The position numbers were made by a program, and so were the translations under genes. A DNA stretch of 50,951 bases, from IMG/VR virus record IMGVR_UViG_3300030012_003861, positions 1-50,951 of that record; one strand, written 5' to 3'. The notes below the pieces were generated by a model. The model had not been told where the DNA came from. It saw only the letters and a program-made list of their open reading frames with translations, and made no database searches. Below, in pieces: positions 24,116-47,897 of this stretch. Numbering within the stretch: position 1 is the stretch's first letter; each line of letters begins with the position of its first letter. This DNA is from a virus.

Positions 24116-24151
24116 AAAAGTTTGGGTGGCAGTAGAATGTTAGTACGTTCA

Positions 24152-24167
24152 CCAGCTATAGTGCTGG
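24152..24167. promoter_or_regulatory. palindrome CCAGC-TATAGT-GCTGG between divergent genes, candidate promoter/operator
   Basis: A 5-bp inverted repeat brackets TATAGT, a one-mismatch -10 hexamer. It lies in the gap between the AlpA-like gene and the 47-aa plus-strand gene. The CTATAGTG core recurs at 13105-13112 in another divergent gap. Could be a promoter with an overlapping operator. Confidence 0.4.
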
Positions 24168-24218
24168 CGCAATTCACCAGGCCATGGAACGGGGACCTGG
24201 GCTTTAGCGGAGAACATC

Positions 24219-25933: not shown

Positions 25934-26018
25934 TAGGAGTGACGAGACTTGAACTCGCACGACCGTAATGGTCAACAGATTTTAAGTCTGGTGTGTCTAC
26001 CGATTCCACCACACTCCC
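25934..26018 (-). tRNA. tRNA-Leu (anticodon UAA)
   Basis: On the minus strand GGGAGTG pairs with CACTCCT in the acceptor stem (one G-T). The D region contains GGAATCGGTAGAC, the anticodon arm is CAGACTTAAAATCTG giving anticodon TAA, then a long class II variable arm (TTGACC...GGTCG) and the T arm GAGTTCAAGTC. The discriminator is A, and CCA is not encoded. Class II with a long variable arm confirms Leu. It would supplement translation of UUA/UUG codons, which are common in these AT-rich genes. Confidence 0.93.
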
Positions 26019-26024
26019 AAGAAA

Positions 26025-26050
26025 AGATCAGGTGTTAAAGCACCTGATCT
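26025..26050 (-). terminator. perfect 10-bp hairpin between the PcfJ-like gene and the tRNA
   Basis: AGATCAGGTG/CACCTGATCT with a 6-base loop, followed on the minus strand by TTTTC. It could terminate the upstream operon, or act as an RNase III-type processing signal just ahead of the tRNA 5' end, 7 bases away. The tail is short of a full U-tract. Confidence 0.6.
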
Positions 26051-26084
26051 AACACCCTACGAACAAGGAAAGCCGAAGCCGTGC

Positions 26085-27869
26085 TTACGTTAGTTCTTCT
26101 TCTCGCTTTGTCAACGCAAGTTTGAAAGCGTCTTCAACATTGGAACGTTCAAAGTCACTAAGTCTTCTGTTACCAATGTCAGCGATTTGATTAACAGTCA
26201 TTACACCATTATCAACAGTGAGTTGAATGGTGTAGCGCGGTTGATTCTCAATCATGGTCAAGATAATGAGGTGCTTCATTTTCTTGACTCCATCTGCATA
26301 GCCATGGCCGCCGCCAACGCAGTTGCGTACGGCTCGACCCCAAGCTGCCAGCTGGTGTGTGTCATGAGGTTGGAAGAAGCTGTACTTAACATCTTCACCG
26401 TCATTACATTGCTCAACCTTGATGGGTTGAGGGAATAGCTTCTGAGGTAAGTCAACGTTAGCGTTACTGATTTTCCAGGTCTCTGCCATGAGATGATCAT
26501 GCCATTCCATCAAACGCCAGCGCCTGGGCTTGATGTTGTCAGTAAAACCAGCAGTAATGCATTGGCAAAGCATCTGATAAGTATCACGCCAATCGTGTAA
26601 ATAAATATGATGTTGTCCTGTAGCAGAGTCACAACTTAGAAAATAACCTCCTGATTCACTTTTTTGTCGGTCAAAATCTAATTGTTGTTTGTATTTTTGA
26701 TAAAGCATGTTGAGAAATGATTCAACAGGCAAGTTTTCTCGCATCCATTGATGACCAACCTCGTTGTTATTAATATTGTAATCTAATTCTAATTTAGAAA
26801 GCCAATCAAATCTAGAATGAAGCAAATTGTGATCAATGTCATGATAAATTTGTTTAATTTGATTAATAGATAATAGAAACTGATAAAGGATTGCATAAGG
26901 TGCTTTAAGTGCTTCACGATCGTATATATTTTCTGTAATAGTATTTTCATGAATGACCTTAGTGTCATTCATTGCATTTAAAATTAAAGATCTAAACCAC
27001 TTTGCAGAAAACACATCTTGCATCCATTTTGAACAAAAACGTTGACGTAATTTATCAAGAATATCATTTACATCATGGATGTATTTATCTTGACCACCCA
27101 TCCACCTGGGCCTAGACCAGTAGCCTGACAAGATATTTTCAAACTTATTATTTTCAGGATCAAGCCGAGTGAAGATTTCATCGTTTGTTCCTCCTTTGAA
27201 CTGAGGAATATCTTTAGCAAGTTGGTTCTCCCATTTTTGAACAGCACGATACATTTGCCAAGTCTTGCCGTAAGACTTAAGGCGATGGTCGTTACGGTTG
27301 GGATTTTTCCAGTAGTTACCGGTATAGCCATCCGCAATATTATTTTTAGTCATAAGAATTGTTTTGCGATACCAGTAACTACGACCATCTTTAACGCGTG
27401 GCAGCATTTTGGATTCTTCAAACTGGTCAAACATATGTTTACCAATCGTGCGACGACTTGTGATGTATGCATCAGTGCATTGCTTGCGTGCCGCTGCTGT
27501 ATCTCGATAAGCAATCGTCAAGCCATAAATATAAGAATCATCTTTTGACCGTGGCAGCCATGCAGCTACCCACAGTTGGCGATGATAGTAAACAACAGCA
27601 AAAGGTTCAGGTTCCTGTCCAAAGACAGGCTTAGTAAACAAGTGAAACTTGTCTGGTGACTTGTCTTTGTTAAGTGCTTCAACAGTTGTTTCCCACAAAT
27701 TGTCTTTGACAATATGAGTAGGAAACATATTTGAAGGACGACCACAAGGGAAAGTCTGTCGTTTGTTTTTGTTACGATCTTCTGCAGCCATGGCAGCTGC
27801 AAGTTTCTTGCGTGTTGCGTCATAGCCTGCAACTTCGAGTGCAAGCTGATTAGGAAGATTGAAATACAT
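26085..27869 (-). CDS. PcfJ-like protein, 594 aa
   Basis: The C-terminal ~100 residues (HQLAAWGRAVRNCVGGGHGYADGVKKMKHLIILTMIENQPRYTIQLT ... QIADIGNRRLSDFER) match the PcfJ family signature: a conserved 'M.NCVG..Y' Cys, a beta pair with 'P.YTI.L', and a final Asn. The N-terminal 450 residues are unrecognised, aromatic and basic, and may bind nucleic acid. PcfJ proteins occur on conjugative plasmids and phages with unknown function. A family 2 leader lies just upstream of its ATG. One of the largest early genes. Confidence 0.75.
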   Translation of the reverse strand: MYFNLPNQLALEVAGYDATRKKLAAAMAAEDRNKNKRQTFPCGRPSNMFPTHIVKDNLWETTVEALNKDKSPDKFHLFTKPVFGQEPEPFAVVYYHRQLWVAAWLPRSKDDSYIYGLTIAYRDTAAARKQCTDAYITSRRTIGKHMFDQFEESKMLPRVKDGRSYWYRKTILMTKNNIADGYTGNYWKNPNRNDHRLKSYGKTWQMYRAVQKWENQLAKDIPQFKGGTNDEIFTRLDPENNKFENILSGYWSRPRWMGGQDKYIHDVNDILDKLRQRFCSKWMQDVFSAKWFRSLILNAMNDTKVIHENTITENIYDREALKAPYAILYQFLLSINQIKQIYHDIDHNLLHSRFDWLSKLELDYNINNNEVGHQWMRENLPVESFLNMLYQKYKQQLDFDRQKSESGGYFLSCDSATGQHHIYLHDWRDTYQMLCQCITAGFTDNIKPRRWRLMEWHDHLMAETWKISNANVDLPQKLFPQPIKVEQCNDGEDVKYSFFQPHDTHQLAAWGRAVRNCVGGGHGYADGVKKMKHLIILTMIENQPRYTIQLTVDNGVMTVNQIADIGNRRLSDFERSNVEDAFKLALTKREEELT

Positions 27870-27899
27870 AATGCAATGTAGTGTGATGTAATGAAAAAG

Positions 27900-27943
27900 C
27901 CTAGGACTTACACAGAAAATTGCGTTAGCATCTGCTGCCCAGG
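27900..27943 (-). promoter_or_regulatory. structured leader element, family 2, copy D
   Basis: Minus strand: CCTGGGCA ... GTAAGTCCTAGG closes a 6-bp helix with one G-T pair. An inner stem GCAGA/TCTGT surrounds a further TGC/GCA pairing. It starts 3 bases after the previous stop codon and ends 31 bases before the PcfJ-like ATG. Confidence 0.65.
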
Positions 27944-27946
27944 TAG

Positions 27947-28234
27947 TTACTCTTCATCGAGTTGCCAGTCTAGATCCATGTTCTGGAGGTAGATAATCTG
28001 TTCAATCTCTGTACCTGCAGATAGTGGAGACTGTTCATCTTCTTCTGTTGTTACCACGGCGCTGCAAATCCCTGCGCCCCATTCTTCAGGTTCTGCAAGT
28101 TCTGCTGGATAATAGATAGCAGGACGGAGCAAACGCATGTCAGCAATGTTGGCAACAACAACCCAGTCAATAGATCCATCAGAATTAGTGCAGTCGACTT
28201 CAATTAATTCGATTGAAAGAATTTCGTTAGTCAT
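27947..28234 (-). CDS. hypothetical acidic protein, 95 aa
   Basis: MTNEILSIELIEVDCTNSDG followed by a mixed alpha/beta body (DWVVVANIADMRLLRPAIYYP) and a strongly acidic C-terminal half (TTEEDEQSPLSAG ... DLDWQLDEE). An overall very acidic small phage protein, of the kind that can mimic DNA or bind a host protein. No family recognised. Starts with an ATGA overlap to the upstream gene. Confidence 0.6.
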   Translation of the reverse strand: MTNEILSIELIEVDCTNSDGSIDWVVVANIADMRLLRPAIYYPAELAEPEEWGAGICSAVVTTEEDEQSPLSAGTEIEQIIYLQNMDLDWQLDEE

Positions 28235-28443
28235 TTGTTAAAACCAAAAAGTGCATCATTATCAAGTGTTGTAAGGACTGTAAGTGCAGCTTGACGCATG
28301 GCTTTTTGATAACCAACCTTTTCATGGTAGTTGGCTGTTGTTGTTTCACCTGATGTTTCAAGTTGAATAAGTTCTCGTTGAATTTGATCAGCCATACCGG
28401 AAAAAGTTTTGTAGACATCAAAGCCTACAAGTTTAGTAGTCAT
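28231..28443 (-). CDS. hypothetical protein, 70 aa
   Basis: Start at ATG 28443 (MTTKLVGFDVYKTFSGMADQI); a Met two codons upstream is possible. Helical, with ANYHEKVGYQKAMRQAALTVLTTLD. ATGA overlap with the next gene. Function unknown. Confidence 0.6.
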   Translation of the reverse strand: MTTKLVGFDVYKTFSGMADQIQRELIQLETSGETTTANYHEKVGYQKAMRQAALTVLTTLDNDALFGFNK

Positions 28444-28467
28444 AATCATGTGAAATAATAAGATTTA

Positions 28468-28641
28468 TTAGCTATGATAGTCGGCATCGCCCGCCATCTC
28501 TTCTGACATAAGTTCTTGCATAAGTTGTTCTTGCTCGTTGGCAATGTCGTTGAGAATAAATTGTTGGTCTTGAGTGTACTCAGTTTTGACAGCATTGTTG
28601 AGGCGTTGCTGTTTAAGTAACCAGGTTTTGATTAGTGACAT
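28468..28641 (-). CDS. 57-aa MSLIK-type protein, paralogue of the 31.1 kb gene
   Basis: MSLIKTWLLKQQRLNNAVKT, then helical Gln/Glu-rich residues (DQQFILNDIANEQEQLMQELM) to a C-terminus ADYHS. It shares its first residues (MSLIK-x-W) and its helical charge pattern with the gene at 31082-31255. Both are preceded by a pseudoknot element at the same distance, so they look like duplicated, co-regulated genes. Function unknown. Confidence 0.6.
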   Translation of the reverse strand: MSLIKTWLLKQQRLNNAVKTEYTQDQQFILNDIANEQEQLMQELMSEEMAGDADYHS

Positions 28642-28663
28642 GATTTGAAATAGTATAGATCAA

Positions 28664-28692
28664 TGAGCAGTTTAAGGACATGCTCAGGTCCA
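28664..28692 (-). promoter_or_regulatory. structured leader element, family 1 (predicted RNA pseudoknot), copy 1
   Basis: Minus strand: GGAC, C, TGAGCA, T, GTCC, TTAAAC, TGCTCA. GGAC pairs with GTCC and TGAGCA with TGCTCA, an H-type pseudoknot with 1-2 and 6 base loops. It lies 22 bases upstream of the 57-aa MSLIK gene. Confidence 0.7.
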
Positions 28693-28709
28693 TTGGTCAA
28701 TTATTGTAT

Positions 28710-28734
28710 GGATTGTGTGCAACCACACACATCC
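28710..28734 (-). repeat. hairpin after the 85-aa gene
   Basis: Minus strand GGAT-(G)-TGTGTG-GTTG-CACACA-ATCC, a 10-bp stem with one bulge, starting at the stop codon of the 85-aa gene and just upstream of pseudoknot copy 1. There is no U-tract, so it is more likely an mRNA stabiliser or processing site than a terminator. Confidence 0.6.
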
Positions 28735-28991
28735 TAGTCAGTCATATGTCTTGTGATTGGCAGTTTATATTTCTCAATCAACATTGACTCAAATTGAGCC
28801 AATACTTTTATCTTAGAACCTTTAAAGCCATACTCTTTTTTCACAGTTGAATATACACTGGGAAAGTTACGAGACAGCTTTATGTTTTTGGTTTCAAGCA
28901 GTAAAGCTTTGTGGAGAGTGAGAAGTTTGAACTTGTAGGTGTCATCGTTAGTGATAACAAATCCACCGTTGCCATAGGTTTGAATAGCCAT
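28734..28991 (-). CDS. hypothetical protein, 85 aa, basic
   Basis: Start taken at ATG 28991 (MAIQTYGNGGFVITNDDTYKFKLL), because the frame upstream of it is low-complexity and hydrophobic by chance. Basic protein (KNIKLSRNFPSVYSTVKKEYGFKGSK). A small alpha/beta phage protein; family not recognised. Confidence 0.6.
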   Translation of the reverse strand: MAIQTYGNGGFVITNDDTYKFKLLTLHKALLLETKNIKLSRNFPSVYSTVKKEYGFKGSKIKVLAQFESMLIEKYKLPITRHMTD

Positions 28992-29091
28992 AAAAAACTT
29001 GGTGTGTGTTGAGTGGTAGTGTGTAAAGTAATTAAAAGTTATACCATTAATAATAAAAAGTGTGGTGGCGGCTGTTCCGGGGGTGTGGGGG

Positions 29092-29328
29092 TTAAACAGA
29101 CTGAGACTGATTTTCAATAAAACGTAGAAAAGCTCCACGTTTCTTTGGATCTCTATGTCGAGGAGTTGTTCGTGGTTTGCTCATTGCACCTTTTGCTGAC
29201 GGATAAAGTTTTTGATCTTGATAATCAATGTAGACCTTGTTGCCATTACGCAAGATGTAGTTTGAACCACGGGCTCCTGTAAAGATTTGAGCCCCCTTTG
29301 GAATTTTGGTGTGGTTAATTCGAGTCAT
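29092..29328 (-). CDS. hypothetical basic protein, 78 aa
   Basis: Beta-rich basic N-terminus (GAQIFTGARGSNYILRNGNKVYIDYQDQKLYPSA), then a very basic tail (KPRTTPRHRDPKKRGAFLRF). It probably binds nucleic acid. It overlaps the DUF4236-like gene by 14 bases. A 100-base gap follows to the next gene and shows nothing recognisable apart from GT-rich runs. Confidence 0.6.
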   Translation of the reverse strand: MTRINHTKIPKGAQIFTGARGSNYILRNGNKVYIDYQDQKLYPSAKGAMSKPRTTPRHRDPKKRGAFLRFIENQSQSV

Positions 29329-29584
29329 GCCACATGTCCTCTTTGTGTTCAGGCAGGTCAGGCACTTGGAAATCTTCCAAGCTTGGTAGATCGTACCGTT
29401 TAGCTAGGCCAGTGCCAGGCAATGATGTTGTTCCCCTGACCTTACCTGATTTCAATTTGATATTCAGTGTCTGACTAAAAGGTCCGACTTTGAATGTTTT
29501 AGAGAATGATTTGACACCACGTTCGGTAATATTGAAACCAAAAATGGTTTTGTCAAAGTTAAATGCTGATTTCTTTTGAGTCAT
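29315..29584 (-). CDS. DUF4236-like small protein, 89 aa
   Basis: The stretch KSFSKTFKVGPFSQTLNIKLKSGKVRGTTSLPGTGLAKRYDLP resembles DUF4236 proteins (basic strands ending 'T.S.PGTGLSY'), which are small beta proteins of unknown role in bacteria. The C-terminal 20 residues are acidic. Overlaps the next gene, so co-translated. Confidence 0.5.
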   Translation of the reverse strand: MTQKKSAFNFDKTIFGFNITERGVKSFSKTFKVGPFSQTLNIKLKSGKVRGTTSLPGTGLAKRYDLPSLEDFQVPDLPEHKEDMWHDSN

Positions 29585-29596
29585 TTTGAATTGATG

Positions 29597-29833
29597 TCAG
29601 GAAGGGGATTGAATCCAATGAGGTTTTGAATTGGGATGTAATTGATTGTAAGTTGAAAGTGTATTGCGATGAAGTGAGTTAACTCGCATAAAGTTAGCCT
29701 CAAGCCATTCATGCAATGCAATTTCAATTACTCGTGATTCATCGATGTCTAAAATGTCTGATAACAATTCAATCATTTGTTGATCGACATTTGTCATCGC
29801 GGTTACTTTGTGAGCCGGTAGTTCAATAGTCAT
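29597..29833 (-). CDS. hypothetical protein, 78 aa
   Basis: MTIELPAHKVTAMTNVDQQMIELLSDILDIDESRVIEIALHEWLEAN has the look of a helix-rich DNA-binding or ribbon-helix-helix-type domain, though the ribbon is not clear. The C-terminus is His/Asn/Ser-rich. ATGA-type overlap with the upstream gene. Function unknown. Confidence 0.55.
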   Translation of the reverse strand: MTIELPAHKVTAMTNVDQQMIELLSDILDIDESRVIEIALHEWLEANFMRVNSLHRNTLSTYNQLHPNSKPHWIQSPS

Positions 29834-30015
29834 GATTTGTGATCATTAAAGATTTCAGATGCGATTTGGTCTAATTCTTGCTCTAATGCTTTCCAACGAT
29901 TAGAAAAGAAAATTTCTTCCCATGTGTCAGAAGCATTAAGCATCATGAGATGAGCTGCATTTGCTTGAAGAAGTTTGAAATGAAATGGTGAAAGTGCAAT
30001 AGAATTTGAATCCAT
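29830..30015 (-). CDS. hypothetical protein, 61 aa
   Basis: Short helical acidic protein (MDSNSIALSPFHFKLLQANAAHLMM ... WKALEQELDQIASEIFNDHKS). The pattern suggests two helices in a hairpin. Sits 4 bases from the next gene upstream and overlaps the one downstream, in the early operon. No family recognised. Confidence 0.55.
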   Translation of the reverse strand: MDSNSIALSPFHFKLLQANAAHLMMLNASDTWEEIFFSNRWKALEQELDQIASEIFNDHKS

Positions 30016-30019
30016 TGAT

Positions 30020-30235
30020 TTAAGAATCTTTTAAGGAATCAGGTAGCATTTGATTAATAGTATCCTCGTCATCGCCCAAGTTATTCATCATGAACTTGGA
30101 ACCGTCAGGTGCAATAAAGCCTCCAACGAACGGGATGCCAGCTTTGTCTGCTGCCGCTCGCATCTTAGCTACCATCTGCATGGCCGCAAGTTTCTTAGAA
30201 TCTGGAATGTTGTTTGGTGTAGTGATGTCAGACAT
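30020..30235 (-). CDS. hypothetical protein, 71 aa
   Basis: MSDITTPNNIPDSKKLAAMQMVAKMRAAADKAGIPFVGGFIAPDGSKFMMNNL is helical with a Gly-Pro turn, followed by an acidic C-terminal region (DDEDTINQMLPDSLKDS). A tidy small domain, clearly coding, family unknown. Confidence 0.6.
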   Translation of the reverse strand: MSDITTPNNIPDSKKLAAMQMVAKMRAAADKAGIPFVGGFIAPDGSKFMMNNLGDDEDTINQMLPDSLKDS

Positions 30236-30275
30236 GATGCTTAAAATAGTGTGTCCTTTGTTAGGTCTGGTTGGT

Positions 30276-30527
30276 TTATTTGTAATAGTGCTGGCGGATC
30301 CAATATTCGATCGTTGATCGTTGCCAACTACAACCTGGATCAGCTAATAAACGATCAATTGCAATGTCAATAGCTGCTGTAGATCCATCTTGGTAAAGCT
30401 GAGCATGAACTGCCATTTCCATTTCACGCCACAGTTTTGTAGCTGAGGGAGACAAAGAAGATTTGGTTGGAATTTTACGGCCCTTCTCTTGGTAGTAGGA
30501 ACCGTAAATGTCAGTGACTGTGTCCAT
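30276..30527 (-). CDS. hypothetical protein, 83 aa
   Basis: Soluble, mixed charge: MDTVTDIYGSYYQEKGRKIPTKSSLSP followed by a helical MEMAVHAQLYQDGSTAAIDIAIDRLL and a C-terminal WQRSTIEYWIRQHYYK. Possibly a small DNA-binding helix pair. First gene of its transcript after the terminator at 30.6 kb. Function unknown. Confidence 0.55.
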   Translation of the reverse strand: MDTVTDIYGSYYQEKGRKIPTKSSLSPSATKLWREMEMAVHAQLYQDGSTAAIDIAIDRLLADPGCSWQRSTIEYWIRQHYYK

Positions 30528-30592
30528 AAATACAATAATTAAACGACAAATAAATGTTGGAAGTTCATTACAATAAACTTCATGTAAATAGA

Positions 30593-30627
30593 CAAAAAAA
30601 TACCCGGAGGGTTAAATCTCCGGGTAT
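30593..30627 (-). terminator. strong intrinsic terminator
   Basis: Minus strand: a perfect 10-bp stem ATACCCGGAG/CTCCGGGTAT with an 8-base loop, followed by a run of seven T. It ends the transcript coming from 31-34 kb, so the 30.5 kb gene and those below it need their own promoter. Confidence 0.9.
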
Positions 30628-30652
30628 CGCCCGTGTTTGCCGCGATTAAAGC

Positions 30653-31015
30653 TTAGCAATAGTGAGGCTGTTCAGAGGGATAGTACTGGGCATACCCGTC
30701 ACAAAATGTGATGTCGTAAGCGGTGAGACCACGACTGTCATCAATGGGCTCTTGATCTGTAACCTCGAATTCTTTTGCAAGTTCGATGCAGCGTTTAATG
30801 GCTGACTTTTTGCTGAATACGAAGTGTGTTGCGATTGGGGTACCTGCTTCATACCACCAACCTCCTTCTTCTGGACCACCGTAGTTTTGCCAGACTTTGT
30901 GGACGCAGACTGTGATGGGTTCACCTTCCCAGTCTTTGTGGATGTTATAAGCGTTGATGTAGAACCGAGCAAGGCCGGTCTTTGGGTAACGCTCTGTCCA
31001 AGTTTTGAGGGCCAT
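30653..31015 (-). CDS. conserved-looking phage protein, 120 aa
   Basis: Start at ATG 31015 (MALKTWTERYPKTGLARFYINAYN). It contains TVCVHKVWQNYGGPEEGGWWYEAGTPIATHFVFSKKSAIKRCIELAK. The aromatic 'GGPEEGGWWYEAG' block looks familiar from many phage proteins of unknown function. C-terminal DGYAQYYPSEQPHYC is aromatic. A compact alpha/beta domain is likely. Confidence 0.65.
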   Translation of the reverse strand: MALKTWTERYPKTGLARFYINAYNIHKDWEGEPITVCVHKVWQNYGGPEEGGWWYEAGTPIATHFVFSKKSAIKRCIELAKEFEVTDQEPIDDSRGLTAYDITFCDGYAQYYPSEQPHYC

Positions 31016-31081
31016 AAAAGAAATGAGAGGAGGCAAAGGATGTGCTCAATAACGTGATAGTCAGACTCAATAATGTAATAA

Positions 31082-31255
31082 TTAAAATGGGACATTTGAC
31101 TTTGGCTCTGATGGAGCTTCTTCTGAAGTTCCCGGTTCGTCACACTCTTCTTGCATAGCTTGTTCAAGATAATAGTGACGGTCTGCGTCGAAGAACATTA
31201 AGTCTTCATCCATCTTGCGCTCTTGGTCGATGATCCACTGTTTGATGAGTGACAT
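31082..31255 (-). CDS. 57-aa MSLIK-type protein, paralogue of the 28.5 kb gene
   Basis: MSLIKQWIIDQERKMDEDLMFF ... EQAMQEECDEP, ending in an acidic tail. The first residues and the overall length match the protein at 28468-28641. Preceded at 31278-31305 by a pseudoknot element, 23 bases before the ATG, as in the paralogue. Function unknown. Confidence 0.6.
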   Translation of the reverse strand: MSLIKQWIIDQERKMDEDLMFFDADRHYYLEQAMQEECDEPGTSEEAPSEPKSNVPF

Positions 31256-31277
31256 GATGTGATTTGATATAAGGAAC

Positions 31278-31306
31278 TGAGCAGTTTAAGGACATGCTCA
31301 GGTCCA
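31278..31306 (-). promoter_or_regulatory. structured leader element, family 1, copy 2
   Basis: Minus strand: GGAC-C-TGAGCA-T-GTCC-TTAAAC-TGCTCA, identical to copy 1 in the core and extended by an extra C/G pair to TGCTCAG. It lies 23 bases upstream of the second MSLIK gene and 5 bases after the previous stop codon. Confidence 0.75.
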
Positions 31307-31310
31307 TCAA

Positions 31311-31466
31311 TCAATCAGTTGAAGCGTGGCGAATAGCGATATTCAGGCGCGTTAAAATTACTTGCCAGAACTCTCGATCGACATCTTCGTCGAATTGAAG
31401 ATTTTCTTCAATGTTCTGAGCAATGGCTTGAGCGTCTTCTAGGTCGATGTGAACTAGGTCTGACAT
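31311..31466 (-). CDS. hypothetical protein, 51 aa, acidic
   Basis: Start at ATG 31466 (MSDLVHIDLEDAQAIAQNIEENLQFDEDVD). A start further upstream is open. Very acidic helix pair; no family recognised. Its stop lies 5 bases from pseudoknot copy 2. Confidence 0.55.
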   Translation of the reverse strand: MSDLVHIDLEDAQAIAQNIEENLQFDEDVDREFWQVILTRLNIAIRHASTD

Positions 31467-31518
31467 GGGGCAAAGGTGTGAGAAGGGCGAGAGGGCGGCG
31501 CGATCAACAGGCAATCAG

Positions 31519-31686
31519 TCAGCGTCGGCAAACTAGAGGTTCTTGAAGAGCTTCTAATGCAGAAGACCAATCTTTGTAATCTTTAGTGGTTTCATCTGTG
31601 TAATCAGATGCCATTTGTTCCATGCAATAAAGAATTTGATTGACTTGATCAGGAGTTAATTCAAATAGAACTTTGATACTAGACAT
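31519..31686 (-). CDS. hypothetical protein, 55 aa
   Basis: MSSIKVLFELTPDQVNQILYCMEQMASDYTDETTKDYKDWSSALEALQEP: a helical, acidic mini-domain. Starts 15 bases after the stop of the 117-aa gene. Function unknown. Confidence 0.55.
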   Translation of the reverse strand: MSSIKVLFELTPDQVNQILYCMEQMASDYTDETTKDYKDWSSALEALQEPLVCRR

Positions 31687-31701
31687 AGTAGTTGTTGGCT
31701 G

Positions 31702-32055
31702 TTAGTTCATGTAAAGCCAGCTGCCGTATGGATCAGCTTTCTTTAGTGCTTTGTTGTATGAGTTTTCATTGAATAGGTTGTAGCGTACATGCTTAGCCGG
31801 TGCTTTCCAGCTAGCAGGTTTGTAAACGTCACCTGTTGTTGCATCAATGAAACACCACGCTGACCATTGCGTTGGTGCATCTTGTGCTAGTCCAGTGACG
31901 TGACCAGTTACAACCTTGTAGTACTTCTTACCTGGTCGTATCTCATACATGAATTTCATGTTGGGATACTGTTTGTGTAGCTTTTCGCCTGCAGCATTAG
32001 CTACAGCTTTAATCTTGGTTTCAAGAGCGTGACGTTGTGTTGTAGTGATGTTCAT
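31702..32055 (-). CDS. conserved-looking phage protein, 117 aa
   Basis: Start at ATG 32055 (MNITTTQRHALETKIKAVANAAG), which overlaps the stop of the 49-aa gene. The distinctive part is SAWCFIDATTGDVYKPASWKAPAKHVRYNLF, an 'IDATTGDVYKPA.W.APA' pattern that I have the impression occurs in several phages, function unknown. Mixed alpha/beta, basic overall. Confidence 0.65.
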   Translation of the reverse strand: MNITTTQRHALETKIKAVANAAGEKLHKQYPNMKFMYEIRPGKKYYKVVTGHVTGLAQDAPTQWSAWCFIDATTGDVYKPASWKAPAKHVRYNLFNENSYNKALKKADPYGSWLYMN

Positions 32056-32201
32056 AATTTCAGAAGATGATAGATCCAACGAGCCAAAGCGTTACGCAAG
32101 CCAGGACTCTTGTAGCTATCCAGCCGACAAAAGTGTCCTGGAGTGATGCGAAAACTGTGCCCATTGGGAGAAAGATTGTGTGCGTTGTACAGATGGATCA
32201 T
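32052..32201 (-). CDS. hypothetical protein, 49 aa, basic
   Basis: MIHLYNAHNLSPNGHSFRITPGHFCRLDSYKSPGLRNALARWIYHLLKL. It overlaps the stop of the 108-aa gene by one base and the start of the 117-aa gene by four, so it is part of an unbroken translation chain. Basic, with a C-terminal amphipathic helix; may bind nucleic acid or membrane surfaces. Confidence 0.55.
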   Translation of the reverse strand: MIHLYNAHNLSPNGHSFRITPGHFCRLDSYKSPGLRNALARWIYHLLKL

Positions 32202-32527
32202 CAGACTTGATGTGTATTAAGTTTGAAGCATTCGATCTTCTCCAAGATTTTAGGGTCATGGAAGCAGTCTGGTTCTGCTTCAACCCATTGAGCGTCACCG
32301 ATACCGTCAACAATGATGAGTTCACGGTATTGTTTGGCGTGTAGGTTGTTCTCAAAAGCAATGACTATCGAGGTGTAGTCAGTGCCTGCTTCAAGAACTA
32401 CCCATCCTCTACGCCTGGCACTCTCAATCGCACGTTGCTTTAGTTCAGCTGTGCTCGTGCCGGTATATGTGGTGGTAGTGGTGGTGGTTCGTGGAGGGGG
32501 AACATCATCTTGAACTTGTTGCTTCAT
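32201..32527 (-). CDS. hypothetical protein, 108 aa
   Basis: Start at ATG 32527 (MKQQVQDDVPPPRTTTTTTTYTG), a low-complexity Thr-rich leader. It is followed by an alpha/beta domain (RAIESARRRGWVVLEAGTDYTSIVIAFENNLHAKQYREL). The upstream leader is very AC-rich (CACATCACATCACACCACA). Function unknown. Confidence 0.6.
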   Translation of the reverse strand: MKQQVQDDVPPPRTTTTTTTYTGTSTAELKQRAIESARRRGWVVLEAGTDYTSIVIAFENNLHAKQYRELIIVDGIGDAQWVEAEPDCFHDPKILEKIECFKLNTHQV

Positions 32528-32600
32528 TGTGGTGTGATGTGATGTGTGCAAAGAGATAGCATGCCCACTAACTAAGAGTGGGCAATGCATCTCTGTTAGG

Positions 32601-32942
32601 TCAACTCTCGACAGATACAGTTACTGGCTCAACACCCTGCTGGCGTTGTTTCCAGGTGTTGTATTGAGATTGACGTTCGGCTTGAGCTTTGATGAAGGCC
32701 GCGGCTTTCTCTGCTGGGCAGTGATGCACCCGACCTTTTGGTGAGACGTAGACGTAGCTGCCGTCTTGTTGACGTTCACCTTGCAAAAGTGCAAGCTTCT
32801 CGTCGTTGTAGGTGTAGCCGATCTTGACGGTGTGCTTGGAGCACAGACCATCTTCGTCGGTCCACTTGGCTGAAAGGTTGTAAAGATCGTTCTCGACCTG
32901 TGCTTGAACTACAGGAATAAGAAGACGAAGTGTGTTGATCAC
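32601..32942 (-). CDS. hypothetical protein, 113 aa
   Basis: GTG start at 32942, preceded by an AC-rich leader and pseudoknot copy 3. Residues about 27-80 (WTDEDGLCSKHTVKIGYTYNDEKLALLQGERQQDGSYVYVSPKGRVHHCP) are beta-rich with two Cys and a His; a compact beta domain. C-terminal helix is Gln/Arg-rich. No family recognised. Confidence 0.55.
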   Translation of the reverse strand: MINTLRLLIPVVQAQVENDLYNLSAKWTDEDGLCSKHTVKIGYTYNDEKLALLQGERQQDGSYVYVSPKGRVHHCPAEKAAAFIKAQAERQSQYNTWKQRQQGVEPVTVSVES

Positions 32943-32969
32943 TGTGTTGTGATGTAGTTAGGTGGACAC

Positions 32970-32997
32970 GAGCAGTTTAAGGACATGTTCAGGTCCA
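32970..32997 (-). promoter_or_regulatory. structured leader element, family 1, copy 3
   Basis: Same layout as copies 1-2, but helix 2 reads TGAACA/TGCTCG, giving one A-C mismatch (G-T if read on the plus strand). The GGAC/GTCC helix is intact. It lies 27 bases before the GTG start of the 113-aa gene. Structure support is weaker than for the other copies. Confidence 0.55.
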
Positions 32998-33019
32998 TCT
33001 ATTCAATTTAAACGAATGA

Positions 33020-33226
33020 TTAGCCGCCAAGATAACGAATGTGCATGCAAGCATAAGTATCACCTACGACACTGGTCAACATGACCAAGCGATGGGTGTC
33101 TGATATACCTGGCTTGTTGCAGTCATATCTTGCTTGGCTGTTCAGATGTTTCTGTAACGCAGAAGTACCAAGCATGCCAAGTGCAAGACCAAAACAAATA
33201 GCAGGAACTGCTTTGATAAAAGACAT
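33020..33226 (-). CDS. 68-aa exported or membrane protein
   Basis: N-terminal hydrophobic segment MSFIKAVPAICFGLALGMLGTSA looks like a signal peptide or anchor. The rest is soluble with two cysteines (YDCNKPGI and ACMHIRY). Leader AC-rich (TACATCACACC). Likely periplasmic or membrane-associated. Function unknown. Confidence 0.6.
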   Translation of the reverse strand: MSFIKAVPAICFGLALGMLGTSALQKHLNSQARYDCNKPGISDTHRLVMLTSVVGDTYACMHIRYLGG

Positions 33227-33242
33227 GGTGTGATGTAATAGA

Positions 33243-33288
33243 TGCCACTAGATTGTGGCAATAAGTGCCAGGGGGTTTGCACCCCTGG
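33243..33288 (-). repeat. two adjacent hairpins in the leader of the 68-aa gene
   Basis: CCAGGGG/CCCCTGG (7-bp stem, 7-base loop, 33268-33288) and TGCCAC/GTGGCA (6-bp stem, 33243-33260). They separate the 55-aa membrane protein gene from the 68-aa gene. There is no U-tract on either strand. Possible RNA leader elements or processing sites. Confidence 0.65.
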
Positions 33289-33303
33289 TCCCGCTTTGAC
33301 GGA

Positions 33304-33471
33304 TCACTTGGATGGACGTTTGATAACGTCCCGTGCCCAGAGCACACCACCGACTAGAGCAGCCGGTGGGAATGCAAGGGCACTGATACCAATGAGGCCA
33401 AGGGTTGCAATGTCTGCAAGACGTTGCTTCTCCTTGTCAGTCAGTGGTGTGTTGGGTTTAACGTCAGTCAT
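33304..33471 (-). CDS. 55-aa single-span membrane protein
   Basis: MTDVKPNTPLTDKEKQRLADI, then a 22-residue hydrophobic segment (ATLGLIGISALAFPPAALVGGVLWA) and a basic end (RDVIKRPSK). One membrane span with cytoplasmic Lys/Arg. Starts just past the stop of the upstream gene. Confidence 0.6.
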   Translation of the reverse strand: MTDVKPNTPLTDKEKQRLADIATLGLIGISALAFPPAALVGGVLWARDVIKRPSK

Positions 33472-33474
33472 TGA

Positions 33475-33651
33475 TCAGTTAGCAAGCAATGTTGCGTAGT
33501 ACTTACGAGCAGCAGTGACTGTTGTCACTGTGCTCTGATCATTAAACTTGACACCTTTGAATGCACGCTTGGTGATGCGTGCGAGATCTTCTTCGGAGTT
33601 GATAACAAACTCGAAGTAGAACTTGTCAGTGACAAAAGCAAGTGTTTGCAT
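33475..33651 (-). CDS. hypothetical protein, 58 aa
   Basis: Start at ATG 33651 (MQTLAFVTDKFYFEFVINSEEDLARI), chosen because the frame upstream lacks protein character and because the AATCAA-ATG-CAA context is shared with the gene at 33920. A small beta-then-helix domain, no family recognised. Pseudoknot copy 4 lies directly upstream. Confidence 0.55.
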   Translation of the reverse strand: MQTLAFVTDKFYFEFVINSEEDLARITKRAFKGVKFNDQSTVTTVTAARKYYATLLAN

Positions 33652-33672
33652 TTGATTAGATGTGATATGAAC

Positions 33673-33701
33673 TGAGCAGTTTAGAGACATGCTCAGGTCT
33701 C
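33673..33701 (-). promoter_or_regulatory. structured leader element, family 1, copy 4 (covarying)
   Basis: Minus strand: GAGAC-C-TGAGCA-T-GTCTC-TAAAC-TGCTCA. Relative to copies 1-3, the first helix changes from GGAC/GTCC to GAGAC/GTCTC. Both strands change and pairing is preserved, while the TGAGCA/TGCTCA helix is kept. This compensatory change supports the pseudoknot. Confidence 0.75.
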
Positions 33702-33725
33702 AGTTGTTGGCTGTTGTTCAGTGGA

Positions 33726-33920
33726 TCAGAAGACACCACTGATATACATCTCTGGATTGTTATCCCAGAAGTTAAGCAGCTCGCGTTGGTTAACTGTTTC
33801 AACCTGGTAACTAACCTCAGGATCCATCGCACCTGCCTCAGAGGCAGCTGCTTCAGCATCAGAGTAATCAGCCCAGACTGAAACAGTTTTACAGTCGCAA
33901 GTAACTATAAAGAGTTGCAT
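33726..33920 (-). CDS. hypothetical protein, 64 aa
   Basis: MQLFIVTCDCKTVSVWADYSDAEAAASEAGAMDP, a small alpha/beta protein with a CDC pair, acidic. Its leader ends TTAATCAAATGCAA, nearly the same as that of the next gene. It is the first well-supported gene of the large minus-strand operon below the origin region. Function unknown. Confidence 0.6.
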   Translation of the reverse strand: MQLFIVTCDCKTVSVWADYSDAEAAASEAGAMDPEVSYQVETVNQRELLNFWDNNPEMYISGVF

Positions 33921-33959
33921 TTGATTAAATCAATTACAATTGTTTGGTTGTTGGCTGTG

Positions 33960-34135
33960 TTTTCCACAAGTAAACGTAGCTTTCTCCACAAGCTGTGGAT
34001 AACTAACCGTATTACTTGGAAAAAAGCAGCGATAATAGCACACCTAAATGTGCGCGAAAGTCTCAGAAAGAGAGCGGATTGTGTCGATTAGCTGACAAAT
34101 TGTCGCACTTTGTGCTAAATCTTTAGCTAATCTTC
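33960..34135. other. candidate replication origin: DnaA-box-like sites and nested inverted repeats
   Basis: TTTTCCACA (33960-33968, exact cyanobacterial DnaA box), TTCTCCACA (33982-33990) and TGTGGATAA (33994-34002, box TTATCCACA in reverse) lie within 43 bases. The last two form a TCCACA/TGTGGA inverted repeat. Beyond them are GCACA/TGTGC (34038-34053), GATTAGCT/AGCTAATC (34086-34132), GACAAATTGTC, GCACTTTGTGC and GCTAAA/TTTAGC. It sits at the point where transcription polarity diverges. An alternative reading is a structured non-coding RNA. Confidence 0.5.
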
Positions 34136-34199
34136 ACATTCTTCCGCTTTCCACTGCGTGCTTCCTCCTATAGGCCGTTGGCTGTTATTTTTTTTCTCT

Positions 34200-34439
34200 A
34201 CGCATTCCCAGTCGGAAGACACTTGTGAGAACAGTCAGGAAAATCAAAACTATTTTGAGGTAAAAACTCGGGCTTTCCCCCGGCCACAAAAAAAGAGCCC
34301 TGGTGGACCCGGTACAAATACTCAGTAATTACTTTGATATTTTAAAAAATAAAAAAATTATAAAAAATATTTTAGGAATAAAAATTTTCAGCAAAAAATA
34401 ACTGGAAATTCCCCAGTTACCCCAAACTTTTACCCCAAA
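34200..34439. promoter_or_regulatory. gene-free region with a GC-rich inverted repeat and a strongly AT-rich stretch
   Basis: No credible open frame. 34269-34308 contains GGGCT...AGCCC arms around a C-rich loop. 34321-34391 is almost pure A and T with A/T runs, consistent with a DNA-unwinding element of an origin and with promoter activity for the divergent operons. Confidence 0.45.
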
Positions 34440-34694
34440 TCACTCTGCAATATTTGCTCTGTATGCCGCTGCTGCTTCAGCTGCGCGGCCCATCTTTCCG
34501 TAATCCGGATACTCTTCGGCCCTGGCCCGGTTAGCTCCGTTTAAAAAGGTTTGAATTTCTAGAGGTGAACTACCTTTTGCTTCCATTGCCGACGCTTCGT
34601 TAGCAATTAAAGCATCAGCGGCTTCCCTCATCTCTCGATTCGGACTTTCCATCCCTATTACTTGGGCATTTCTATAAATATAGTTTAGTTCCAA
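34440..34694 (-). CDS. hypothetical helical protein, 84 aa
   Basis: MELNYIYRNAQVIGMESPNREMREAADALIANEASAMEAKGSS then Ala/Arg-rich helical residues (ANRARAEEYPDYGKMGRAAEAAAAYRANIAE). First minus-strand gene left of the divergence point, 58 bases from the first late gene. Mostly alpha-helical with no Cys. Function unknown. Confidence 0.6.
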   Translation of the reverse strand: MELNYIYRNAQVIGMESPNREMREAADALIANEASAMEAKGSSPLEIQTFLNGANRARAEEYPDYGKMGRAAEAAAAYRANIAE

Positions 34695-34752
34695 GAAATT
34701 TTACCCGTTAAAATATAGATATCTAAAAATATTTGTTGATAATAGGACGATT

Positions 34753-47534: not shown

Positions 47535-47821
47535 TGGCACAAGACGATTCAAAATATACAAAACCAGGTTTACGCGAATCAATTAAAAAGCGTATTACAG
47601 CTGGTAGTAAAGGTGGTAAACCTGGTCAGTGGTCTGCGCGTAAAGCACAGATGGTCGCAGCTGAATATAAAAAGAAAGGCGGTGGCTATAAAGGTGGTGA
47701 AGGCAAAAAACAAAAAGATCTAAAGAAATGGGGTAAAGAGAAGTGGATGACAAAAGATGAATATGAAAAGCGTAAGAAATCCCGTAGCGCGGCTAAAAAA
47801 TATAAGGACAGCAAAAAATGA
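47534..47821 (+). CDS. lysine/glycine-rich basic protein, 95 aa
   Basis: KPGLRESIKKRITAGSKGGKPGQWSARKAQMVAAEYKKKGGGYKG followed by a basic W...W region (DLKKWGKEKWMTKDEYEKRKK) and a Lys-rich end. The 'R..IK.RI.AGSKGGKPGQWSARKAQ..A.EY...GGGY' pattern is familiar to me from phages and giant viruses as a chromatin-like basic domain, possibly related to DUF5872. Probably binds DNA inside the capsid. The stop overlaps the next start. Confidence 0.65.
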   Translation: MAQDDSKYTKPGLRESIKKRITAGSKGGKPGQWSARKAQMVAAEYKKKGGGYKGGEGKKQKDLKKWGKEKWMTKDEYEKRKKSRSAAKKYKDSKK

Positions 47822-47897
47822 TTAACTTCCAGAATTTATTAAACCGCGCTCAAGGACAGAAAAAAATGATTAACTTCCAGGATTTATTAAACCGCGC
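47804..47897 (+). repeat. tandem 48-bp duplication of a ribosome-binding site and start region
   Basis: 47804-47849 and 47852-47897 are copies with only two or three differences, each containing AAGGACAG, an A-run, ATG and the codons for MINFQ(N/D)LLNRA. Both copies therefore hold a complete translation start, giving two possible N-termini 16 residues apart for the LysM protein. Confidence 0.9.

Follow-up and report, generated by a model that had tools for sequence, protein, structure and literature searches.

The REP/BIME elements of enterobacteria are intergenic stabilizers of messenger RNA (mRNA), longer imperfect hairpins of bacterial chromosomes with sequences of their own, which recur as structured RNA past stop codons in polycistronic messages and have been proposed to block 3' exonucleases. 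Here we analyzed an element in IMG/VR virus record IMGVR_UViG_3300030012_003861, whose 50,951 bases are together referred to below as the window. The element is a 28-nucleotide (nt) H-type pseudoknot, present there in four copies, and it almost certainly represents a genuine RNA family. Like the REP elements it sits in intercistronic gaps past stop codons, but it is a pseudoknot, occurs mainly in phages and extends across several host phyla. Pseudoknots of similar size, about 28 nt, act in the frameshifting of luteoviruses, beet western yellows virus among them; they have a C in loop 1, and their long loop is rich in A and contains C. They lie inside a coding overlap and stimulate -1 frameshifting, whereas the present element is intergenic and the reading frames past its upstream stop codons have short median extensions.

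Several other systems share part of this description. Cluster K mycobacteriophages carry ESAS, whose 17-bp imperfect inverted repeat has a spacer of variable length and is tied to SAS at start sites, lying immediately upstream of it; like the present element, SAS/ESAS are phage-borne, repeated, intergenic and near translation starts, but their excerpted description gives no pseudoknot or stop-codon rule (PMC3203893). We rejected SAS/ESAS membership because the present element has 28 nt and helices of 4 and 6 bp, and a start codon does not always come next. The T4-type gene 32 leader also holds an H-type pseudoknot in phage mRNA, with stacked helices, but this autoregulatory gp32 operator, located 67 nt before the start with A+U-rich repeats behind it, serves one gene (PMC3014915). 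Such an operator was rejected here, as no SSB appeared in the 25 families shown (of 65, covering 97 of 135 downstream neighbors) and the four window genes had no Pfam match. STAXI is likewise a small repeated pseudoknot, found near genes for DNA-handling proteins such as integrases, but it comes in two or three tandem copies and often has UUCG loops (PMC2864571). Copies of the present element are usually single, 0.7 to 2.6 kb apart in the window, and without an Rfam match; STAXI membership was rejected for lack of tandem copies, the window copies starting 704 to 2,614 nt apart and 80 of the 115 element-bearing loci holding one copy only. Finally, the flaviviral exoribonuclease-resistant RNA (xrRNA) is a compact knotted RNA that halts bacterial RNase J1 as a general mechanical block without specific contacts, although it is larger, has a ring topology and blocks 5'-to-3' enzymes (PMC5760640). 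Such a block is therefore physically possible, for the present knot by analogy only, and the element may work as REP elements or xrRNAs do without being a member of either group.

The pseudoknot and its covariation

The initial annotation had reported four minus-strand copies, and all four are present where stated, with the following coordinates (helix 1, loop 1, helix 2, loop 2, helix 1, loop 3 and helix 2 separated by hyphens).

28,664 to 28,691, minus strand: copy 1, GGAC-C-TGAGCA-T-GTCC-TTAAAC-TGCTCA, 42 nt past the stop of the open reading frame (ORF) at 28,734 to 29,138; an ATG at 28,641 follows 22 nt on.
31,278 to 31,305, minus strand: copy 2, all 28 nt identical to copy 1, 5 nt past a TGA at 31,311; an ATG at 31,255 follows 22 nt on.
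32,969 to 32,996, minus strand: copy 3, GGAC-C-TGAACA-T-GTCC-TTAAAC-TGCTCG, 23 nt past a stop at 33,020; a GTG at 32,942 follows 26 nt on.
33,673 to 33,700, minus strand: copy 4, AGAC-C-TGAGCA-T-GTCT-CTAAAC-TGCTCA, 25 nt past a stop at 33,726; an ATG at 33,651 follows 21 nt on.

All lie in gaps within a run of small minus-strand ORFs, and the measured start-codon distances bear out the claim that the copies precede minus-strand starts by 20 to 30 nt. The window pseudoknot consists of helix 1 GGAC/GTCC, loop 1 C, helix 2 TGAGCA/TGCTCA, loop 2 T and loop 3 TTAAAC or CTAAAC, which agrees with the compact fold proposed earlier, with loops of 1, 1 and 6 nt; copy 3, however, has in helix 2 (TGAACA/TGCTCG) one A-C mismatch and one U-G end pair that had gone unmentioned. 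Copy 4, as had been noted, differs from copies 1 to 3 on both sides of the outermost helix-1 pair, giving AGAC/GTCT, or GAGAC/GTCTC when read as five pairs. A 26-nt degenerate pattern built from the copies matched only these four in the window at up to 3 mismatches, with 0 expected from 100 shuffles. When geometry alone was searched on the minus strand of 26,000 to 34,700, there were 5 matches, whereas 60 shuffles gave 0.4 on average and never more than 3; the five were copies 1, 2 and 4 and two unrelated matches, copy 3 failing the geometry rule.

A pattern scan of IMG/VR returned at least 120 viral loci. Its pattern fixed CTGARCAT and AAACTGCTC, and conservation of the loops and helix 2 is therefore partly imposed; copies later found by structure in the same loci were freer, yet AAAC or AAACT was still demanded, and two geometry searches asked for no sequence. 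The fetched loci held 143 matches, of which six rows came from loci of the window itself, and the spacing was 6 nt in 120 although the pattern allowed 3 to 8. A structural search of these loci and the window found 183 elements in 115 of 121, and none in reversed sequences.

Pairing was assessed free of the finder's bias in elements chosen by sequence alone, where helix-1 pairs 2, 3 and 4 were Watson-Crick in 126 of 129, 124 of 129 and 94 of 127 elements, versus 28 to 38% when partners were re-dealt. An ungapped alignment was built from distinct copies with a 6-nt loop 3 (132 finder strings and two window copies; 134 in all, 133 distinct). There, 95.0% of cells were paired versus 76.6% after shuffling, the covariation score was 0.486 versus 0.141 shuffled and at most 0.111 slid, and double-sided changes occurred in 8 of the 10 pairs, four per helix; all of these figures are inflated because the finder that admitted most rows demanded pairing. 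Helix 2 was also found as TAAGCA/TGCTTA, TAGGCA/TGCCTA, TGGACA/TGTCCA, TGAACA/TGTTCA, TAGACA/TGTCTA and TGAGTA/TACTCA. When one departure in helix 2 was permitted, the gene strand showed G-U or U-G in 15 cases, A-C in one (window copy 3) and G-A in one (L119), which argues that the structure is formed by the sense RNA; six further matches in that list lacked the loop-1 C and look like chance.

In the intact copies loop 1 was C in 147 of 147, a constancy partly imposed by the search patterns. In the geometry-only search of the loci, the combination of two 1-nt loops stood out: 69 matches had a loop 3 of 6 nt and 21 had one of 8 nt. A second peak, at loops 2, 2 and 5, seems to be these elements again, with helix 1 read one pair further out. 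In the consensus, helix 1 has four pairs that covary freely, except that the inner one is mostly C-G; loop 1 is a single C, helix 2 is TGAGCA/TGCTCA, loop 2 is one base, and loop 3 is usually of 6 nt and ends in AAAC. The initial annotation, which had called the element a repeated and covarying RNA, proposed a search of related phages and a covariation test: copies were found upstream of genes in related phages, and covariation of helix 1 and helix 2 across many viral loci was strong. We expect the knot to fold within cells as well.

These data also bear on the possibility that a DNA-level repeat, such as an operator or a recombination or packaging site, merely resembles an RNA fold. The element is a short intergenic repeat, and copies are almost always on a single strand within a record, as such a site might be. 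Compensatory changes in two interleaved helices and the asymmetry between G-U and A-C speak for RNA, however, and on covariation and strand asymmetry we ruled out a DNA operator or chance repeat; a DNA-level explanation is hardly credible.

Position relative to the flanking genes

Across phages, the tightest rule of placement concerns the preceding stop codon. Among 176 rows, the distance from the end of the upstream stop to helix 1 is 5 nt in 31 and 6 nt in 16, and 27 have no ORF end within 60 nt. Compared with a 28-nt slot placed uniformly in each element's own gap, a stop gap of 5 to 6 nt was found in 20 of 89 versus 4.6 expected, and one of 0 to 4 nt in 1 versus 11.6. With one element counted per upstream-gene family, about 23.4 of 69 stand at 5 to 6 nt, about 0.4 at 0 to 4 nt and about 1.0 overlapping, and in the 42 families with a downstream Shine-Dalgarno (SD) start the values were 12.3 versus 2.5 expected at 5 to 6 nt and 0.3 versus 6.2 at 0 to 4 nt. 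Because of this excess and deficit, it looks as though selection keeps the knot just clear of the terminating ribosome.

A knot at this distance could also act on the ribosome itself, whether terminating or initiating, by way of recycling, uncoupling or standby recruitment to the next start codon. With a gap of 5 to 6 nt the knot would stand at the mRNA entry while the stop is in the A site, as the geometry of frameshift signals indicates, and 97 of 183 elements have a start codon with an SD-like motif no more than 120 nt away, at 12 to 38 nt in 67 cases. Stop gaps of 20 to 58 nt are common, however, and copies flanked by a tRNA or terminator have no start codon directly after them, which makes such a ribosome boundary element unlikely. 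A pseudoknot 5 to 8 nt behind the decision codon is, in addition, the classical geometry of recoding, by readthrough of the stop or by -1 frameshifting of the upstream gene. Among the 80 elements with a stop 4 to 12 nt before the knot, at least 30 codons are open in frame 0 for 14, in frame -1 for 14 and in frame +1 for 6, but half of the extensions end within 8.5 codons of the stop in frame 0, within 5 in frame -1 and within 3 in frame +1 (medians), and no frame is generally open. We consider recoding very improbable.

The upstream side is also the better conserved one: upstream genes are similar without similarity downstream in 393 element pairs, versus 36 pairs for the reverse (a count weakened by the poor performance of short ORFs in BLAST) and 91 for both. 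Tallies of PHROG assignments, which cover 110 of 149 upstream and 97 of 135 downstream neighbors and mostly leave out the shortest, are led upstream by Hsp20 (22) and phrog_1221 (19) and downstream by phrog_1221 (10). In the window, the copies are followed by these ORFs.

28,468 to 28,641, minus strand: ORF of 57 amino acids after copy 1, starting MSLIKTW (by eye), without a Pfam match at an E value of 0.001.
31,082 to 31,255, minus strand: ORF of 57 amino acids after copy 2, starting MSLIKQW (by eye), without a Pfam match.
32,601 to 32,942, minus strand: ORF of 113 amino acids after copy 3, with a GTG start, without a Pfam match.
33,475 to 33,651, minus strand: ORF of 58 amino acids after copy 4, with a longer in-frame start at 33,690 inside the pseudoknot, without a Pfam match.

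A 75-nt repeat (81%) covers the knot and the gene start for copies 1 and 2, and the ORFs after these two copies are likely paralogous.

A candidate roadblock between cistrons

The element fills gaps, clears the ribosome, may have a tRNA behind it for RNase P to release, and is shared by phages of many hosts; in our view, a physical barrier at message boundaries is the best reading. Specifically, we propose, with a probability of about 0.4, that it serves as an inter-cistronic roadblock that shields the end of the upstream message from 3'-to-5' exonucleases. The knot would occupy the gap between cistrons, often just outside the stretch that a ribosome covers when it terminates at the upstream stop codon. 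The polycistronic phage transcript would then be cut downstream of the knot, by RNase P where a tRNA follows and otherwise by an endonuclease acting in the G-poor stretch behind it, and the knot would halt the exonucleases so that the upstream message is preserved.

A tRNA begins 3 to 12 nt after the element in 11 of 174 cases, while a tRNA end within 100 nt before it was found once, at 97 nt. In Arthrobacter phage Molivia (tRNA-Gly) and Nostoc phage NMeng1 (an annotated pseudo-tRNA) the start is 2 and 3 nt after the knot. The message left by RNase P would end 2 to 12 nt beyond the knot, which is mostly shorter than the 3' overhang that 3'-to-5' exonucleases need. The first 7 bases past the knot are poor in G (4 to 9%), compared with mostly 15 to 29% from the ninth base on. 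In line with a message boundary, a terminator comes within 110 nt of the knot in 6 of 11 tiny-ORF units on bacterial chromosomes (five times no more than 25 nt behind it and once at 83 nt), and in L061 and L099 a consensus promoter begins 14 nt beyond the knot.

Several observations weigh against a role confined to the upstream message. The nearby tRNAs are tRNA-Asp in 10 of 12 cases and therefore probably reflect few independent events. Two same-strand genes flank 125 of 174 elements, a placement that cannot tell the upstream from the downstream side, and 16 of 174 elements lie within a predicted ORF; these gene calls are crude, being simple long-ORF picks with many spurious short ORFs in the orientation classes. 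In the largest upstream family (24 elements), taken to be the Hsp20 family, a start codon follows 15 to 24 nt on in 15 of 24 while the stop gap runs from 5 to 102 nt, and in the window the start gaps (21 to 26 nt) are tighter than the stop gaps (5 to 42 nt), and the duplication that links copies 1 and 2 took the downstream gene start along. In L123 and L024 a promoter precedes the knot and places it in the 5' untranslated region of the next gene, and neither promoters nor terminators are clearly enriched on either side of 166 phage elements. In units with a tiny ORF on bacterial chromosomes, the stop codon overlaps or abuts the knot, contrary to the 5-nt rule. With evidence for both sides, neither side is favored everywhere.

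The same observations raise the alternative that the knot protects from the 5' side, as a bacterial counterpart of viral xrRNA that stops 5'-to-3' decay or hides a 5' end and so spares the downstream message. In addition to the start-codon spacing in the window and in the largest upstream family and the promoters before the knot in L123 and L024, this would suit the three phages in which the major capsid gene is two genes on from the element, namely B166 (L222, a degenerate copy), D6E (L229) and phiEF-1.1 (L221); the intervening gene carries a scaffold annotation in D6E and phiEF-1.1, and in B166 it is hypothetical. The arrest of RNase J1 by flaviviral xrRNA would also be in keeping with it (PMC5760640). 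However, a tRNA or terminator right after the knot leaves little downstream message to protect, and the sharp stop-codon rule would not be expected, so we regard 5'-side protection as rather unlikely. The word leader, which the initial annotation applied to the element, may hold in the window because start-codon spacing is tighter there, but does not serve as a general account: across phages it is the preceding stop codon that is held most tightly, similarity of the upstream gene outlasts that of the downstream gene, and a tRNA, a consensus promoter or (on bacterial chromosomes) a terminator, not a start codon, directly follows some copies.

The knot might instead act while nascent on RNA polymerase, through antitermination or pausing, and let the enzyme enter the next gene, tRNA or terminator. 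The near-invariant loop-1 C and the AAAC of loop 3, both partly imposed by the search patterns, hint at recognition, and the spread over many hosts would suit a target as conserved as RNA polymerase. The terminators of the chromosomal tiny-ORF units would also suit such a role. Around the phage copies, however, terminator-like hairpins were no more frequent downstream (7 of 166) than upstream (10 of 166), and the zone next to the stop codon from which knots are excluded would be left unexplained, which makes a transcriptional role quite unlikely. Consensus promoters were found downstream of 8 and upstream of 10 of the 166 elements, versus 5.4 and 4.2 expected; perfect ones lie after the knot in L061 and L099 and before it in L123. 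What weight remains is left to recoding, DNA-level or unlisted functions.

Hairpins with CTTTC / ATCCTTTCTTTC-rich loops were seen by eye directly before the knots in L013, L051, L062 and L123; the loops possibly pair with SD-like purines. The tiny ORFs mentioned above, of about 17 to 25 codons, precede the knot on chromosomes of several phyla, most with a motif like MKRFxxPRxAHCxxGC, and might encode a peptide or act as a leader-peptide attenuator. The units are as follows.

Tiny-ORF units found by script: L169:2266-2348, L188:7641-7723 and L144:3991-4073; also L179, L196 and L200.
Tiny-ORF units found by eye: L151, L165, L191, L201 and L155.

Spread across phages and bacteria

We also searched 47 whole records picked for having a match, 30 of them from the at least 120 viral loci and 17 of them named phages; the sequence pattern matched in 40, one of them falsely, and in none of the backward controls. 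The false match was in E. coli phage phiEcoM-GJ1, which fits the sequence pattern without a helix 1 and was rejected as a carrier. Of the 17 named phage stretches fetched, 13 satisfy the structural rule, three are degenerate and one fails. The 13 carriers include phages of Lentibacter, Roseobacter, Paracoccus, Vibrio, Lactobacillus, Moorella, Mycobacterium, Arthrobacter, Nostoc and Synechococcus, as well as thermophilic phage D6E and crAss-like phage cr7_1; the hosts of carrier phages belong to several bacterial phyla. Weak copies with helix-2 mismatches occur in Staphylococcus phage B166, Microcystis phage Mwe-JY13 and Synechococcus phage S-EIV1, the last having one helix-2 mismatch and lying 5 nt past a stop codon (gap measured by eye). 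The window is itself likely to derive from a freshwater cyanophage, because its DNA polymerase and the S-EIV1 enzyme share 64.7% identity.

In bacterial genomes of three phyla the element is rare, with 4 of 286, 5 of 297 and 1 of 296 genomes, counts that include the centre genomes, which were picked for a match, and in the second case also G032, likewise picked. Among 93 matches on genome contigs, 46 had at least three further consecutive helix-1 pairs, G-U allowed, versus about 5% expected for three random pairs. Knot-matching spacers were present in CRISPR-like arrays at L166:176-258, L148:3384-3454 and L206:891-958, which hold 11, 12 and 14 repeat copies in the stretches read and belong to at least two unrelated bacteria (Saprospira and an Oscillatoriaceae genome) plus a third. 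The arrays were judged by their repeats; in L134, a suspected fourth array, the stretch read contained no repeats.

The initial annotation had stated that the element matches no known leader family, and the Rfam searches agree, within the limits of models that lack pseudoknot pairs. With Rfam 15, only a Glutamine-II riboswitch and a tRNA reached the gathering threshold in the window, a limited test for the same reason; five of the at least 120 viral loci, searched at E values up to 5, gave six matches, none at an element; and 20 of 92 genome loci gave tRNA and tmRNA only. Within these limits, membership in a known Rfam family was rejected. A literature search found no description of the element, with most subscription journals and bioRxiv preprints outside its coverage. 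The Glutamine-II riboswitch aptamer lies at 24,143 to 24,201 on the plus strand (56.8 bits), where the long ORFs are on the minus strand. Elsewhere in the window, two tandem 46-nt copies that are 96% alike, at 47,804 to 47,897, span the junction of two successive plus-strand ORFs, covering the end of the first and the start of the second.

Tentatively, then, tailed phages of several phyla may share a protein-independent, exonuclease-resistant module of 28 nt that is acquired and kept at message boundaries, at a distance from the ribosome that is exact to the nucleotide, and that bacterial chromosomes have now and then picked up. An RNA structure common to phages of several host phyla and without an Rfam match would be a general device of phage gene expression, and its position rule offers a sharp, testable link between the ribosome footprint and message processing. 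If it does block exonucleases, the knot would be among the smallest such modules and a ready tool for stabilizing transcripts, a minimal nuclease-proof RNA of bacterial viruses.

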